DNA of 64,000 nt from Halanaerobium saccharolyticum (GTDB lineage Bacteria; Bacillota; Halanaerobiia; Halanaerobiales; Halanaerobiaceae). A model generated the notes under the pieces. The model was not told the origin of the DNA, did no database searches, and worked only from the letters and a program-made list of their open reading frames with translations. This document shows positions 3,786 through 42,440 of this stretch, piece after piece. The translations under genes and the position numbers were made by a program. Every line of letters starts with the position of its first letter. Position 1 is the stretch's first letter. The stretch is from contig NZ_SNWX01000006.1 of assembly GCF_004362045.1 (NCBI RefSeq), forward strand, positions 1-64,000, given 5' to 3'.

Positions 3786-3861
3786 GGGCCATTAGCTCAG
3801 TTGGCAGAGCACCTGACTTTTAATCAGGTTGTCGGAGGTTCGAATCCTCCATGGCTCACCA
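3786..3861 (+). tRNA. tRNA-Lys (UUU)
   Basis: A complete cloverleaf: acceptor GGGCCAT/ATGGCTC with one G-U pair, anticodon loop CTTTTAA, TTCGAAT T-loop and encoded CCA. Confidence 0.97.
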
Positions 3862-3869
3862 TTTAATAG

Positions 3870-3946
3870 CGCGGGGTAGAGCAGTCTGGTAGCTCGTCAG
3901 GCTCATAACCTGGAGGCCATCGGTTCGAATCCGGTCCCCGCAACCA
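3870..3946 (+). tRNA. Initiator tRNA-fMet (CAU)
   Basis: Anticodon loop CTCATAA. The first base C1 faces A72 (CGCGGGG against CCCCGCA), the mismatch that marks initiator tRNA, and an A11-U24 pair is present. The anticodon stem is TCAGG/CCTGG, so pair 29-41 is A-U instead of the usual third G-C. CCA is encoded. Confidence 0.95.
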
Positions 3947-3969
3947 TTTTTATTTATAATTACATATTG

Positions 3970-4045
3970 GGTGGGATAGCTCAGTCGGTAGAGCAGTGGA
4001 TTGAAAATCCACGTGTCGACAGTTCGATTCTGTCTCCCACCACCA
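3970..4045 (+). tRNA. tRNA-Phe (GAA), copy 1
   Basis: Acceptor GGTGGGA/TCCCACC, anticodon loop TTGAAAA, encoded CCA. The gene is identical over its length to the copy at 9845-9920. Confidence 0.97.
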
Positions 4046-9609: not shown

Positions 9610-9685
9610 GGGCGAATAGCTCAGTTGGGAGAGCACCTGCCTTACAAGCAGGGGGTCACAGGTTCGAGCCCTGTTTCGCCCACCA
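9610..9685 (+). tRNA. tRNA-Val (UAC)
   Basis: Acceptor GGGCGAA/TTCGCCC, anticodon loop CTTACAA, encoded CCA. Confidence 0.97.
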
Positions 9686-9763
9686 TTTTTATTTGCAAAT
9701 TTAATAAAAGAAGTTGTGTTAGATGTTTTATTCCTGATTTTCTAGATACTACTTCTTAAACGC

Positions 9764-9840
9764 GGAGGTGTAGCGTAGCGGTTTAACGCGCCGGCCTGTC
9801 AAGCCGGAGATCGCGGGTTCAAATCCCGTCTCCTCCGCCA
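9764..9840 (+). tRNA. tRNA-Asp (GUC)
   Basis: Anticodon loop CTGTCAA, G73 discriminator (an Asp identity element), encoded CCA. The acceptor GGAGGTG against CTCCTCC contains one U-U mismatch at pair 6-67. Confidence 0.95.
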
Positions 9841-9844
9841 TTTT

Positions 9845-9920
9845 GGTGGGATAGCTCAGTCGGTAGAGCAGTGGATTGAAAATCCACGTGTCGACAGTTC
9901 GATTCTGTCTCCCACCACCA
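9845..9920 (+). tRNA. tRNA-Phe (GAA), copy 2
   Basis: Identical to the tRNA-Phe gene at 3970-4045, including the CCA end. Confidence 0.97.
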
Positions 9921-9925
9921 TTTTT

Positions 9926-10000
9926 GCGGGAATAGCTCAGTGGTAGAGCATCACGTTGCCAACGTGAGGGTCGCGAGTTCAAATCTCGTTTCCCGCTCCA
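9926..10000 (+). tRNA. tRNA-Gly (GCC)
   Basis: Acceptor GCGGGAA/TTCCCGC, anticodon loop TTGCCAA, encoded CCA. Confidence 0.97.
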
Positions 10001-10016
10001 TTTTATTTGCAGCCTG

Positions 10017-10091
10017 GGCGGCATAGCCAAGTGGTAAGGCAGAGGACTGCAAATCCTTTATTCGGCGGTTCAAATCCGTCTGCCGCCTCCA
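10017..10091 (+). tRNA. tRNA-Cys (GCA)
   Basis: Acceptor GGCGGCA/TGCCGCC, anticodon loop CTGCAAA, U73 discriminator, encoded CCA. Confidence 0.97.
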
Positions 10092-10107
10092 ATTCATTAT
10101 TACTGAT

Positions 10108-10152
10108 ATAACAGCCATTGCGGCTGTTATTAAAATTATTATTTTTTTATTT
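10108..10152 (+). terminator. Probable terminator of the Val-Cys tRNA operon
   Basis: ATAACAGCC (10108-10116) and GGCTGTTAT (10122-10130) form a stem. The T-rich tract comes only after a short A/T spacer, so strength is uncertain. Confidence 0.6.
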
Positions 10153-10247
10153 GCTTGACAAAAGGTGCCCGTATTGGTGCCATTTTATTATTTTAGAAGC
10201 ATTAAATAAAAGTTTATTAACAATTTAAATAATTTGAAATATTTATC

Positions 10248-10276
10248 TTGACAAATTTGAGAACCATTGATATAAT
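10248..10276 (+). promoter_or_regulatory. Promoter of tRNA operon Leu-Val-Leu
   Basis: Consensus TTGACA (10248-10253) and TATAAT (10271-10276) are 17 bp apart. GTCGCAAG begins 8 bases after the -10 box. Confidence 0.88.
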
Positions 10277-10308
10277 ACAAAATGTCGCAAGTTAAATGTT
10301 ACATATTT

Positions 10309-10397
10309 GCCGGGGTGGCGGAATTGGCAGACGCATCGGACTTAAAATCCGGTGGGAATTTATTCCCGTGTCGGTTCGAGCCCGACCCCCGGCACCA
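10309..10397 (+). tRNA. tRNA-Leu (UAA), copy 1
   Basis: Class II tRNA with acceptor GCCGGGG/CCCCGGC, anticodon loop CTTAAAA, a long variable arm and encoded CCA. It is identical to the copy at 10551-10639. Confidence 0.97.
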
Positions 10398-10459
10398 CTT
10401 TTTGCTTGCACATTTTTTCTTTTTCATAGTAAGTTGAAAGTGCTAACTTAATATTTTAA

Positions 10460-10536
10460 GTTGGTATAGCTCAGTTGGTCAGAGCGCTACGTTGACATCG
10501 TAGAGGCCAGTGGTTCGAATCCACTTACCAACACCA
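10460..10536 (+). tRNA. tRNA-Val (GAC)
   Basis: Acceptor GTTGGTA/TACCAAC, anticodon loop TTGACAT, encoded CCA. It sits between the two identical tRNA-Leu copies. Confidence 0.96.
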
Positions 10537-10550
10537 TTTTAATAATATTT

Positions 10551-10639
10551 GCCGGGGTGGCGGAATTGGCAGACGCATCGGACTTAAAATCCGGTGGGAA
10601 TTTATTCCCGTGTCGGTTCGAGCCCGACCCCCGGCACCA
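10551..10639 (+). tRNA. tRNA-Leu (UAA), copy 2
   Basis: Identical to the gene at 10309-10397. The identity also covers the few bases before it (ATATTTGCC against TAATATTTGCC), which points to a recent local duplication. Confidence 0.97.
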
Positions 10640-10823: not shown

Positions 10824-11105
10824 ATAAATATTCAAATGCCCTGATAGGGAAGAGTAAATTTATCTGTAAGTTACAAGAGAATTGTGCCGACGGCTGAAAG
10901 CACATAGCTTAACAGTAAGTTGAAAACCACCCTGGAGCAGATAGGAGGAATAAAGTATTTCTATCCGGTTAAACCGTTATCTTATTAAGGGAATAATGAT
11001 TTTAACTATTCTATCTTTAATCTAGAATAGAGATAATTATTATTAACTAGAGTGGAACCGCGCAGTCCGTCGTCTCTATAATGAGATGAGGGATTTTTTT
11101 GATTT
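10824..11105 (+). promoter_or_regulatory. T-box riboswitch of thrS (Thr)
   Basis: The leader has the T-box sequence AGAGTGGAACCGCG (11049-11062), whose TGGA pairs with the UCCA end of uncharged tRNA-Thr. The stem I apical part, AGAGTAAA and the 3' flank of the specifier loop are present; ACC at 10926-10928 is the likely Thr specifier codon. A terminator stem (11077-11101, one mismatch) with a T-run follows. Uncharged tRNA-Thr should stabilise the antiterminator and switch thrS on. Confidence 0.93.
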
Positions 11106-15572: not shown

Positions 15573-15819
15573 GAATATTATATTTAATGGCTGAGAAGGA
15601 GAGAGTAACTAAAAATGATTCTGACAGAGATTAGCTGCAGCAGCTGGGAGCAGTTAAATTATCAAATTTAGTGAAGTTCACTCTGGAGCTGAGGGCTGAA
15701 TCAAGTAAGCTTTTCCGGAAGTTAATGACTTTCGTTAACAAAAGAAAGTGATTCCACAATTATGTGGGATAATCAGGGTGGTAACACGGTATCTCGTCCC
15801 TTTAGGGCGGGATTTTTTG
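15573..15819 (+). promoter_or_regulatory. T-box riboswitch of pheST (Phe)
   Basis: The T-box sequence AGGGTGGTAACACGG (15775-15789) contains TGGT, which pairs with the ACCA end of the tRNA-Phe genes in this window. The specifier-loop codon is TTC at 15677-15679 (Phe) before an ACTCTGGAG stem flank, and AGAGAGTA lies in stem I. The terminator (TCGTCCC/GGGCGGGA with T6, 15792-15819) follows. Uncharged tRNA-Phe should promote readthrough into pheS. Confidence 0.95.
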
Positions 15820-27363: not shown

Positions 27364-28584
27364 ATGAAAATTAAGGAACAGATTGAGATATTAAAAAGAG
27401 GGGTAAGTGATCTTATCTCTGAGGAAGATCTAAAAGACAAATTGATTGAAGCAGAAAAAGAAGGAAGACCTTTAAAAGTTAAGCTCGGGCTTGATCCATC
27501 AGCCCCGGATATTCATCTGGGACATACAGTGGTACTTCGTAAGTTAAAGCAGTTTCAGGATTTAGGCCATGAAGTCTATTTAATTATTGGTGATTTCACT
27601 GGAATGATCGGAGATCCAACCGGTAAATCTGAAACCAGAAATCAGCTGACCAGAGAAGAGGTTTTAGAAAATGCACGTACATATGAAGAACAGTTTTCTA
27701 AAGTGCTGGATCCCGAAAAGACCAGGGTAGTTTTTAATGGAGACTGGTTAAGTGAAATGGATTTTGCTGATGTTTTAGAATTATCAGCCCATTATACAGT
27801 TGCCAGAATGCTGGAGCGTGATGATTTTTCAAAACGTTATAATGCCGGTAAGCCAATTGGAATTCACGAATTTTTCTATCCCTTAATGCAGGGTTATGAT
27901 TCGGTAGCAATTGAAGCCGATGTAGAATTAGGGGGAACAGATCAGCGTTTTAACTTGCTGGTTGGGCGTAAATTGCAGCAGGAATACGGCCAGGAGCCCC
28001 AGGTTATTTTGATGATGCCCTTACTGGAAGGTTTAGATGGTGTCAACAAAATGAGTAAGAGTTTAGATAATTATATCGGAGTTTATGATGAACCGGCTGA
28101 TATGTTTGGTAAGGTAATGTCGATTCCTGATGATATGATCTTACGTTATTTTGAACTTTTAACTGATGTTTCAATTGAACGTTTAAATGAAATGAAGGAA
28201 AAATTGGACCGTGATGATTTTAATCCAATGAAATTAAAAAAAGAACTGGCTCATGAGATTGTAAAGGAATATCACAGTGAAGAGGATGCAGTTAAGGCCC
28301 GGAAAGAATTTGAAAGTGTTTTCTCTAAGGGAAATTTACCTGAGGATATTCCGGTAATTGAGATTTCAGAATCTGATCTAGAAGATGGTGAGCTCTGGAT
28401 AGTGAAGCTGATAGCTGCAACTGGACTTGTTGATTCTAACAGTCAGGCCCGCCGAATGATTAAACAGGGTGCGGTAAGTATTAATGATGAGAAGTATGAA
28501 AAGATTAATCTGGATATTAAAGTTGAGGATGAGATGATTATTCAGATTGGTAAACGCCGCTTTGCTAAAATTAAATTAGTTTAG
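27364..28584 (+). CDS. tyrS: Tyrosyl-tRNA synthetase
   Basis: A 406-residue class I synthetase of the TyrRS-2/TyrZ type: [32 protein letters not shown] with the HLGH signature, [26 protein letters not shown] for tyrosine recognition, KMSKS (NKMSKSLDN) and a C-terminal S4 RNA-binding domain (about 340-406). The ATG at 27364 fits the family N-terminus. Frame is open upstream to 27304, but that is before or at the transcription start. See the leader feature for the unusual initiation region. Confidence 0.96.
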
Positions 28585-28596
28585 ACAGCAGCTGAA

Positions 28597-28886
28597 ATTT
28601 ATTTTTCTGTTCTTTCTAAAATTATTTAAAATAACTAGGGCCTCAAAATCTTAAATCTCTATCCAGATCAGCTTTAAGAAAAAGCTAATAATCATATTTT
28701 GCAATTAATAAGACTACCTTCCCGATCAGAACCTCGTGTTCTGCGGTCAGCTGAGAACATCCTGTTTTCAGGTCTTATTAATTGCTCATATTCTTAAAGT
28801 TTTTCTAGAAAAGCTGATGAGTCAGTCGATTTAAGATTTTGAGTCCTAGTTTCAGTTAAATAGAAGATTAGAACAGAAAAATAAAT
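28597..28886. repeat. 290-bp imperfect palindrome, possible structured RNA or MITE-like element
   Basis: The outer arms ATTTATTTTTCTGTTCT (28597-28613) and its exact complement (28870-28886) bound a long inverted repeat with further matching blocks: CTAGG.CTCAAAATCTTAAATC (left near 28633-28656) and GCAATTAATAAGAC (28701-28714) against 28772-28785. The apex has two small hairpins, CAGAAC/GTTCTG (28727-28743) and GAGAACA/TGTTTTC (28753-28769). Folded as RNA it is a rod ending in two hairpins. No ORF fills it and no T-box motif is present. It occupies most of the 434-bp gap between tyrS and alaS. Function unknown. Confidence 0.75.
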
Positions 28887-29018
28887 ATACATTTTAATAA
28901 CTAATTAAATTTTAGCTGCAGCAGTTATTAGAAGAACAATCCATAATTAATTTTCAAGGAAAAGCGTTGTGGAGATTAATATCTGAGAGAAAGAAATAAA
29001 TTTGAAAGGAAGGTTTAA

Positions 29019-31655
29019 ATGATTAAAAGTGGAGATGAAATAAGACAGGCTTATCTTGATTTTTTTAAATCAAAGGGGCATCTGATTTTAGATAGTGCAC
29101 CTCTGGTTCCTAAAAATGATCCAAGTCTGTTGTGGATAAATGCAGGAATGGCTCCCTTTAAGCCATATTTTGACGGCAGTCTTGAGCCACCTAAAAAGCG
29201 TATTGCTACCAGCCAGAAGTGTATCCGTACAAATGATATAGAAAATGTGGGTAAAACGGCACGTCATCATACTTATTTTGAAATGCTCGGGAACTTTTCT
29301 TTTGGTGATTATTTTAAAGAAGAAGCAATAACCTGGGGCTGGGAATTTGTAACTGAAGTTCTGGAGCTTGATCCTGATAAATTATGGATTACAATTTATG
29401 AGGAAGATGAAGAAGCTTTTAAGATCTGGCATGACAAGGTTGGTTTACCGGAAGAAAAGATAGTCAGAATGGGTAAAAAGGAAAATTTCTGGCAGATTGG
29501 AACTGGCCCCTGTGGTCCCTGTTCTGAAATTCATTATGACCGGGGAGTAGAAGCAGGTGACAGTGAAGAAGATGTGCTTGGTGGTGAAGGTGATAGATAT
29601 TTAGAAATCTGGAACCTTGTCTTTACTCAGTATAATTATACAGAAGCCGGAGAATACAGAGAACTGCCCAATAAAAATATAGATACCGGGATGGGGCTGG
29701 AAAGAGTTGCTTCTATTTTACAGGAGACTGAAACCAATTTTGAAACAGATTTGATTAAGCCGATTATCGATCAGGTAGTAGAAATGACAGGGATTCCCTA
29801 TCGGCAAGATGAGGAAAGTGTAACAGCATATAGAGTAATTGCTGATCATATTCGTTCCGCTTCTGTTGCTATTTCTGATGGAGCTTTACCTTCTAATGAA
29901 GGACGCGGTTATGTAATTCGCCGTCTGATTAGAAGAGCTGCTCGTTATGGTCGAAAACTTGGTTTTGAAAAACCATTTTTATATAAATTAGTGGAAAAAA
30001 CAGCTGAGATAGTAAAGGGTGTAGCACCTGATCTTAAAAAACAGCTGGCTCATGTTAAAAACGTTCTTAAATCTGAGGAAGAAAGTTTTTTAAAAACCTT
30101 AGAACAGGGGTTAAATATTCTAGAAGATATGTTAAGCAATCTAAAATCAGAAAATAGAGAAGTACTGGCAGGTAAAGAAGCTTTTCGCTTATATGATACC
30201 TATGGTTTCCCCCTTGATTTAACCGAAGATATTGCAGCTGAAGCTGGAATTAAGGTTGACGAAAAGGGATTTGAAAAAGAAATGGCAGCTCAGCGCAAAC
30301 GAGCCAGAGAGGCCAGAGAAGAAACTTCTTTCAGCAGAGGGGAAGTAGAAAAAATTTATGCAGAATTTAAAGATCAGATTGAAGAAGATAATTTTACCGG
30401 CTATCATTCCTTAAAAGAAAAAACTGAAGTTATCGGTCTGCTTCAGGATAATCAGAAAGTTAAAAAGCTTACCAAAGGTGAAAAAGGAGATTTGATACTG
30501 GCTAAAACTCCATTTTATGCAGAAAGTGGGGGTCAGATTGGTGATGAAGGTATAATAAAAAATGATAATTTTAAAGTGGAAGTAACAAACACCGTCAAAA
30601 AAGCAGAAGTTTTTGTACATCAGGTTGAGGTAAAGGAAGGTTCAATAGAAGTTGGAACTGAGGTAGAAGCAGTTGTTTATCACAACAGACGTCAGGCAAC
30701 TGCCAGACATCATTCAGCGACTCACCTGCTGCATAAAGCTTTAAAAGAGGTTCTGGGTGAACATGTAAATCAGTCCGGTTCTCTGGTAGCCCCGGATCGA
30801 CTTCGTTTTGACTTTACTCATTTTTCTGCCCTGACTGAAGAAGAATTAGAAACAATTGAAAGAAAAGTAAATCAGGCAGTAATGGAAAATTATCAAGTGG
30901 AAACAGAAGTTAAAGCCATTGATGAAGCGAAAAAAATGGGCGCAACTGCTCTTTTTGGTGAAAAATATGGCGAAGAGGTTAGAGTTGTCAAAATGGGTGA
31001 TTTTAGTATGGAATTATGTGGTGGAACTCATGTTGAGGCAACTGGAGATATTGGCGCTTTTAAAATCATTTCTGAAAGCGGAATTGCAGCTGGTGTCAGG
31101 AGAATAGAAGCTGTAACCGGAGAATATGCTCTGGATTATTTTAATTCCAGGCTTGAACTTTTAGAACAGACAGCAGCTGAATTAAAGACTGAACCTGATA
31201 ATCTTTTACAGCGTGTTAAACAGCTGCAGAAAGAGCAGAAGGATTTAGAAAAAGAATTAGAAGCTTTAAAACAGAAGCTGGCCGGTTCTAAAAAGGATGA
31301 ACTTCTCGATCAACTCCAGCAAATTGAAGGTGTTAATCTGCTGACAGCAGAACTTGAAGATCTTGATAATTCAGCTTTAAGAAATTTAAATGATCAGCTT
31401 AAAGATAAAGTTGACTCAGCTGTAATTGTTCTGGCCAGCAAAGGTGATAACAAAGTAATTTTTGTTGCTTCTGTAACTGAAGATTTAATTGCAAAAGGAT
31501 TTAAAGCTGGAGATATTATTTCAAAAGTTGCCAGAACTGCTGGTGGTGGTGGAGGTGGACGTCCTGATATGGCCCAGGCAGGAGGTTCAAAACCAGAAAA
31601 AACTACTGAAGCACTGGCAGAAGTAGAAAAAATTGTCAGGGAAATTGCAGGATAA
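29019..31655 (+). CDS. alaS: Alanyl-tRNA synthetase
   Basis: A complete 878-residue class II synthetase. The catalytic domain starts GDEIRQAYLDFFKSKGH and continues through FEMLGNFSFGDYFKEEAI; the tRNA-recognition domain follows; the editing domain carries the zinc motif HSATHLLHKAL and CGGTHVEATG; the C-Ala domain has a coiled coil (about 725-770) and the GGGGGGRPDMAQAGG glycine segment. It charges tRNA-Ala and clears Ser/Gly mischarging. Ribosome binding site GGAAGG. It heads the conserved alaS-ireB group. Confidence 0.98.
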   Translation: MIKSGDEIRQAYLDFFKSKGHLILDSAPLVPKNDPSLLWINAGMAPFKPYFDGSLEPPKKRIATSQKCIRTNDIENVGKTARHHTYFEMLGNFSFGDYFKEEAITWGWEFVTEVLELDPDKLWITIYEEDEEAFKIWHDKVGLPEEKIVRMGKKENFWQIGTGPCGPCSEIHYDRGVEAGDSEEDVLGGEGDRYLEIWNLVFTQYNYTEAGEYRELPNKNIDTGMGLERVASILQETETNFETDLIKPIIDQVVEMTGIPYRQDEESVTAYRVIADHIRSASVAISDGALPSNEGRGYVIRRLIRRAARYGRKLGFEKPFLYKLVEKTAEIVKGVAPDLKKQLAHVKNVLKSEEESFLKTLEQGLNILEDMLSNLKSENREVLAGKEAFRLYDTYGFPLDLTEDIAAEAGIKVDEKGFEKEMAAQRKRAREAREETSFSRGEVEKIYAEFKDQIEEDNFTGYHSLKEKTEVIGLLQDNQKVKKLTKGEKGDLILAKTPFYAESGGQIGDEGIIKNDNFKVEVTNTVKKAEVFVHQVEVKEGSIEVGTEVEAVVYHNRRQATARHHSATHLLHKALKEVLGEHVNQSGSLVAPDRLRFDFTHFSALTEEELETIERKVNQAVMENYQVETEVKAIDEAKKMGATALFGEKYGEEVRVVKMGDFSMELCGGTHVEATGDIGAFKIISESGIAAGVRRIEAVTGEYALDYFNSRLELLEQTAAELKTEPDNLLQRVKQLQKEQKDLEKELEALKQKLAGSKKDELLDQLQQIEGVNLLTAELEDLDNSALRNLNDQLKDKVDSAVIVLASKGDNKVIFVASVTEDLIAKGFKAGDIISKVARTAGGGGGGRPDMAQAGGSKPEKTTEALAEVEKIVREIAG

Positions 31656-42333: not shown

Positions 42334-42440
42334 GGCAATAATTTATTAAAATAGCATAAAAAAGCAAAACAGTCGAAAGGCTGTGACGCAAAGACATAAA
42401 TCTAAGGGAAAAATTTTCTATGATCGTTATGTTTGCCTCA
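42333..42440 (+). promoter_or_regulatory. Cyclic di-GMP-I riboswitch (GEMM-I)
   Basis: P1 pairs AGCATAA (42353-42359) with TTATGTT (42427-42433). The first hairpin CAGTC-GAAA-GGCTG (42370-42383) has the GAAA tetraloop and is followed by the conserved TGACGCAAAG, the core of GEMM-I. The 5' end (AGGCAA, 42333-42338) can also pair with TTGCCT (42433-42438). The aptamer binds c-di-GMP and stands 5' of the pilus operon. Confidence 0.92.

Follow-up and report, generated by a model that had tools for sequence, protein, structure and literature searches.

A palindrome between tyrS and alaS of Halanaerobium saccharolyticum as a probable MITE-derived repeat re-mirrored by template switching

MITEs and other small mobile sequences of bacteria have been reviewed previously (PMC2229807), and MITEs are typically non-coding, short, intergenic and palindromic. 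A short, gene-less palindromic element of about 270 nt, the IS200/IS605-derived PATE of Halanaerobium hydrogeniformans, has IS605 ends and carries a piece of tnpB (PMC7290912), and insertions in the 5S rRNA genes of Halanaerobiales have been described as unbranched helices (PMC7812874). REP/BIME sequences are hairpin-forming repeats, which are often located between co-directional genes. Mirrored arms, two-sided base changes and inverted adjacent DNA are known from template-switch hairpins (PMC8794818) and from quasipalindrome correction (PMC7202029), and template switching is an established source of such two-sided changes (PMC8794818).

Here we analyzed a palindrome in the gap between tyrS and alaS within a stretch of 64,000 nucleotides of the H. 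saccharolyticum genome (the window). The repeat family to which it was assigned shares the listed properties of MITEs, and the copies in genome G039 add terminal inverted repeats, a target duplication and a high copy number. Unlike in MITEs, a T-shaped tip is conserved across the class, and the outer arms of the Halanaerobium copies are locus-specific. The family also shares the mirrored arms, two-sided changes and inverted adjacent DNA of template-switch hairpins, but here these features recur around the copies of one repeat family and reach the coding ends of neighboring genes. Size, palindromic form, lack of genes and host genus are common to the PATE; however, IS605 insertion makes no target duplication, whereas in G039 the present family is characterized by long terminal repeats and a duplication of 6 bp. 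Identity with the PATE was rejected because of this duplication and the published description of that element. REP/BIME sequences are far shorter and do not carry two hairpins on one long stem. The 5S rRNA gene insertions, being unbranched by description, were also rejected as members of the T-shaped family. In the literature searched, no published description of such a family in Halanaerobiales was found. These gene-less small mobile DNA repeats of Halanaerobium and its relatives are seemingly undescribed; as far as this literature and Rfam show, the MITE-like family is new, and the mirrored-arm behavior in Halanaerobium is unusual.

The palindrome in the tyrS-alaS gap

The initial annotation had described a 290-bp imperfect palindrome at positions 28597-28886, and our analysis bore out both its existence and its matching blocks. 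These comprised the ends (28597-28613 and 28870-28886; 17 of 17 positions), the middle (28643-28657 and 28828-28842; 15 of 15, within a 35-nt block matching at 77%) and the region near the apex (14 of 14), which is tipped by two hairpins as described (Table 1). The 316-nt region 28585-28900 was far more stable than its dinucleotide shuffles, with a minimum free energy of -105.1 kcal/mol compared to -52.9 (SD 4.5) kcal/mol; this value was 11.7 SD below the shuffles, and none of 100 shuffles was as good. The extended fold including the flanks (28556-28925) contained 127 Watson-Crick and three G-T pairs. Moreover, the mirrored region is longer than first stated and totals ~350 bp, as an outer inverted pair of 18 nt had been missed. 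Its left half consists of the last coding bases of tyrS, an inverted copy of which lies beyond the palindrome (p = 0.007 compared to shuffles). The orthologous site in G004 also shows an inverted tyrS coding end.

Just before alaS, positions 28928-29003 represent half of a second palindromic repeat, which had been missed as well. An inverted copy of this repeat is located on the tyrS side in G001, G002 and G006, indicating that the tyrS-alaS gap was mirrored more than once. Elsewhere, the window contains known cis-regulatory RNAs, namely an FMN riboswitch, two T-boxes and a c-di-GMP-I riboswitch (160-281, 10832-11080, 15584-15804 and 42353-42440), and tRNA clusters at 3786-4042 and 9610-10636.

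Table 1 Features of the palindrome and its flanks in window coordinates.
Feature	Position	Strand	Basis
Shared core, model R1, 176 positions, T-shaped when folded	28660-28835	+	R1 match of 165 bits, E 4e-28; homology between loci stops near these limits
Left outer arm, locus-specific	28597-28659	+	Pairs with right arm, score 34 (shuffles ≤23); unrelated to arms of other loci
Right outer arm, locus-specific	28836-28886	+	As for left outer arm
Apex closing stem, 5' side	28701-28714	+	Pairs with 28772-28785, 14 of 14
Apical hairpin 1, loop CTCGT, inside TTCCCGA...CGGTCAG	28722-28746	+	Invariant flanks, covarying stem and nTC[C/G]T loop across loci
Apical hairpin 2, loop TCC plus closing A-T (nTC[C/G]T type)	28751-28771	+	Conserved position, covarying stem
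tyrS coding 3' end with inverted copy beyond the palindrome	28564-28581	+	18 nt, 94% complementary to 28899-28916
Inverted copy of tyrS coding end	28899-28916	-	Pairing with 28564-28581; G004 orthologue alike

A dispersed repeat family with a T-shaped core

The palindrome is not unique. A DNA search of relatives detected an orthologous copy in G004 (93% identical) and diverged copies at other loci of G000, G002, G003, G004 and G009, and further copies in the window's own genome had escaped the initial annotation. All copies have a ~176-bp T-shaped core tipped by two small hairpins. The common apex, found in 18 copies, consists of TTCCCGA, a small hairpin, CGGTCAG and a second small hairpin, with the loops of both hairpins following nTC[C/G]T. 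A covariance model of the core (R1), which was trained on Halanaerobium copies only, detected family relatives in 17 of the 59 genomes of the class, with nine copies in the window's genome and 8-11 in G003, G004 and G009. The matches in nine other genera were weaker but significant (mostly 50-108 bits). Since only Halanaerobium copies were used for training, the matches of 90-107 bits in G038 and G039 are independent evidence of kinship. Among the matches listed from a collection-wide pattern scan, most were due to chance, and the H. saccharolyticum record was the sole clear family member.

In Halanaerobium, about a dozen mostly intergenic sites were found, many of them common to several species. 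Based on gene names assigned by reading the protein sequences, they are tyrS-alaS, kdgA-kdgK, purC-purF, an amidohydrolase gene, a hydF-adjacent gene, a gene upstream of rho, rpsI, purL and a few others. The neighboring genes are mostly, not always, co-directional. A constant orientation of the repeat relative to the genes, an early hint at RNA, did not hold at the purL, L203 and L240 loci and in G039. The initial annotation had also considered a leader of alaS; this idea was not supported, because the same core occurs beside other genes, among them purC, kdgA, rpsI and purL, and several species have no copy in front of alaS (the tyrS-alaS gaps of G007, G010 and G011 lack the element). Between loci, the identity of representative copies does not exceed 76%, and the Halanaerobium copies are old and located at shared sites. 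At the G004 site upstream of rho, a second, diverged core (L039, 1085-1254) lies in tandem with the first and has CTCCT loops in both hairpins, but lacks TTCCCGA.

A textbook MITE form was observed in G039, a member of the same class but another family, in which 58 copies match R1. The terminal sequence TACTGCAAAAAGCTAATTTT occurs there 565 times in forward and 569 times in reverse orientation (≤3 mismatches), as opposed to 0 and 1 for the controls. According to the alignment, the element is ~220 bp long, has terminal repeats of ~25 bp and ends sharply, the flanks of different copies being unrelated. In 400 kb of G039 we identified 54 end pairs, most of which span 190-220 bp, as well as shorter, internally deleted forms of 90-190 bp. 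An identical 6-bp target duplication flanks 16 of the 54 copies (0.7 expected by random pairing), and only one of the 54 lies inside an ORF, although ORFs cover 82% of the sequence. G038 contains a homogeneous set with related ends (ATGGTATAACCACAAAAAGGTCA), and the element ends in these two genomes read GATTNTACTGCAAAAAG or ATGGTNNNNCCACAAAAAGGT. The elements of G039 and G038 are MITEs by form. Dispersed non-coding copies in unrelated flanks are a feature of the family. In contrast, terminal inverted repeats were found in G039 and G038 while the Halanaerobium copies have no recognizable shared end sequence, and a target duplication of fixed length (6 bp) was found in G039 while none was identified for the Halanaerobium copies. 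The mobility of the latter is suggested by their kinship with the G039-type elements. A transposase or autonomous partner sharing the ends was not found in the 400 kb (11%) of G039, where an apparent 3.8-kb "long element" turned out to be a chance pairing of weak end matches. Taken together, the MITE-like option of the initial annotation is supported by the dispersal, by the element-free tyrS-alaS gaps of other Halanaerobium species, and by a related genome whose copies have clear terminal repeats and, in part, target duplications.

In one region of G039 (G039:C1:1943462-1981588, L226-L228), 13 MITE copies lie on the same strand within an RHS-type array, interspersed among its repeated cassette genes and the small genes downstream of these; the array also holds one IS110-like and one ISL3-like transposase ORF. 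The ~2-kb spacing of these same-strand copies had suggested an integron attC or gene-cassette array. This interpretation was discarded as the region looks RHS-type, and the copies are ordinary MITEs that were probably duplicated along with the array.

Mirrored arms and base changes in the stem

Beyond the 176-bp core, the left and right flanks pair strongly with each other at most loci (scores of 26-45; shuffle maxima mostly 17-24, and 30 at one tyrS variant). The kdgA, adaq and purL copies are without clear outer mirrored arms. The arms of different loci are unrelated, with mean cross-locus scores of 10.5-17 that fall in the shuffle range (L203 and L045 being the same locus in this comparison). 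At about five loci (tyrS, purC, the amidohydrolase gene, L067 and L246), the right arm holds the inverted coding tail of the left gene. Such an inverted copy of adjacent unique sequence, as template switching would generate it, was thus seen at these loci and is absent at element-free sites. The purC-purF gap is particularly informative. In G002, G004, G009 and G007 it measures 15-22 bp and contains neither element nor inverted copy; in G013, from another genus, the purC site carries the element and one inverted purC tail; in G000 and G003 there is a unit with its own inverted purC tail plus a second outer tail that matches the right arm of G013. The purC site of G008 has lost the apex and kept both tails, which looks like a deletion. 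In the purC-purF gap of G000:C2 (L323), the left half of the core (TAATTTTAAAATGAATCTAA...GGACTACCTT) is present a second time in direct orientation; this duplicate is located to the right of the palindrome, flanked by two copies of GGCGGTAGTTGGAT, and is a further indication of local template switching. Among 53 G039 copies no inverted flanks were found (own score 10.1, other loci 9.95), indicating that inverted flanks arise after insertion.

The initial annotation had proposed a stem kept by compensation. As a pattern this holds: the RNAalifold consensus comprised 39 pairs, 26 of which had two-sided changes, and a second count gave 35 of 39. As a sign of selection on RNA it does not, because A-C mispairs are as frequent as G-U mispairs, and most differences between close orthologues are one-sided. 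In the SRP RNA, our control from the same genomes, G-U pairs made up 20.6% of the paired cells, the ratio of two-sided to one-sided changes was 1.05, and the G-U to A-C ratio was 378:1. In the repeat stem, G-U pairs accounted for 3.4-3.8%, two-sided changes exceeded one-sided changes 7- to 13-fold, and, leaving out two weak pairs, G-U and A-C mispairs numbered 53:66 overall and 35:31 in Halanaerobium. Among close orthologues one-sided changes prevailed (50, versus nine Watson-Crick double changes) with a G-U to A-C ratio of 18:13 (p = 0.47), whereas distant orthologues differed mainly by double changes. Selection on an RNA transcribed from one strand should strongly favor one mispair, with G-U tolerated and A-C not, and the repeat stem shows no such preference.

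Origin of the palindrome

The palindrome is probably a Halanaerobium copy of a class-wide, gene-less family of MITE type, and intrastrand template switching probably lengthened its arms and mirrored them anew. In an ancestor of G000, G002, G003, G004 and G009, a trans-acting transposase would have placed the element between tyrS and alaS. Thereafter, during replication, the nascent strand may have formed a fold-back at the palindrome, with its own first arm serving as the template. Such copying would re-mirror the arms, convert one-sided into two-sided mutations and, where it overran the old end of the element, place an inverted copy of the neighboring gene's 3' end on the opposite side. The long stem would then be a record of DNA copying rather than a selected RNA structure. 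We infer template switching from its products; it predicts the two-sided changes among distant orthologues, and fold-back copying after insertion is the simplest account of the local arms. Template switching does not account for the fact that the T-shaped tip and its loop motif are conserved across genera. This conservation suggests some function, perhaps in transposition, with a role of the tip as a DNA hairpin in that process being our likeliest guess.

Of the other explanations, the replacement of existing units is the least improbable, albeit well short of an even chance. Copies of other subfamilies would re-insert into or convert resident ones and bring self-matched arms, which would also yield many two-sided and few one-sided changes among distant orthologues and one-sided changes among close ones. 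The tyrS copies fall into two tree groups and were grouped together in 0% of the bootstrap trees, and the tyrS core of G009 is 76% identical to one amidohydrolase-locus copy, compared to 65% to that of the window. Identity and bootstrap values had made replacement between sites look convincing, but a single clade for each locus was not rejected in AU tests (p = 0.098 for tyrS, 0.053 for amidohydrolase, 0.38 for kdgA and 0.40 for adaq), which lent it no support; replacement alone does not account for the inverted coding tails either, and it may have acted alongside template switching. A functional structured RNA (3' UTR, intercistronic or leader), with the stem kept by selection on the transcript, appears improbable. 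It would agree with the strong two-sided variation, the conserved loop motif and unpaired stretches on one strand, and the persistence of mostly co-directional sites in several species. Against it stand the mispair counts in all three comparisons relative to the SRP RNA, the very unlike neighboring genes, the variable orientation at some loci and the hundreds of copies in G039. Furthermore, no known RNA family matched the palindrome in Rfam, neither in the whole window nor at a permissive threshold in 27500-30000, which gave one chance match, and no sigma-70-like promoter was found in 28500-29060. On present evidence the palindrome is hence not the new structured RNA that the initial annotation had envisaged as one option.

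We consider it quite improbable that the element preferentially inserts into pre-existing palindromes, such as old hairpins after genes, so that the outer arms were the target and not the product. At purC the newer unit does sit within the remnant of an older mirrored stretch, but element-free sister species have short gaps without palindrome at purC and tyrS, and the outer arms include inverted coding sequence. Least credible of all is an ordinary intrinsic terminator of tyrS. The palindrome directly follows tyrS, and the one terminator-like match is its second apical hairpin, which scores by itself; yet the whole is ~290 bp long, its long stem is followed after position 28886 by ATACATTTTAAT without a T run, and the same core is also found in front of divergently oriented genes (purL). 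We further regard as rather unlikely a repeat that installs or sustains itself, its T-shaped DNA hairpin priming fold-back synthesis along the same strand and each site gaining arms from the inverted host locus. If this were true, the repeat could do without terminal repeats, and a locus-specific mirror image of the adjacent gene would be left behind at every site.

For a functional RNA stem, base changes on both sides of the pairs usually count as the strongest evidence. The present repeat has a strong two-sided signal, yet, compared to the matched SRP RNA control, its mispair spectrum suggests that a mechanism at the DNA level was at work. Counting G-U against A-C mispairs is a simple check that could be used before announcing a new structured RNA. 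In addition, template switching is usually inferred from isolated events, whereas the inverted ends of neighboring genes make it visible at several sites of one family.
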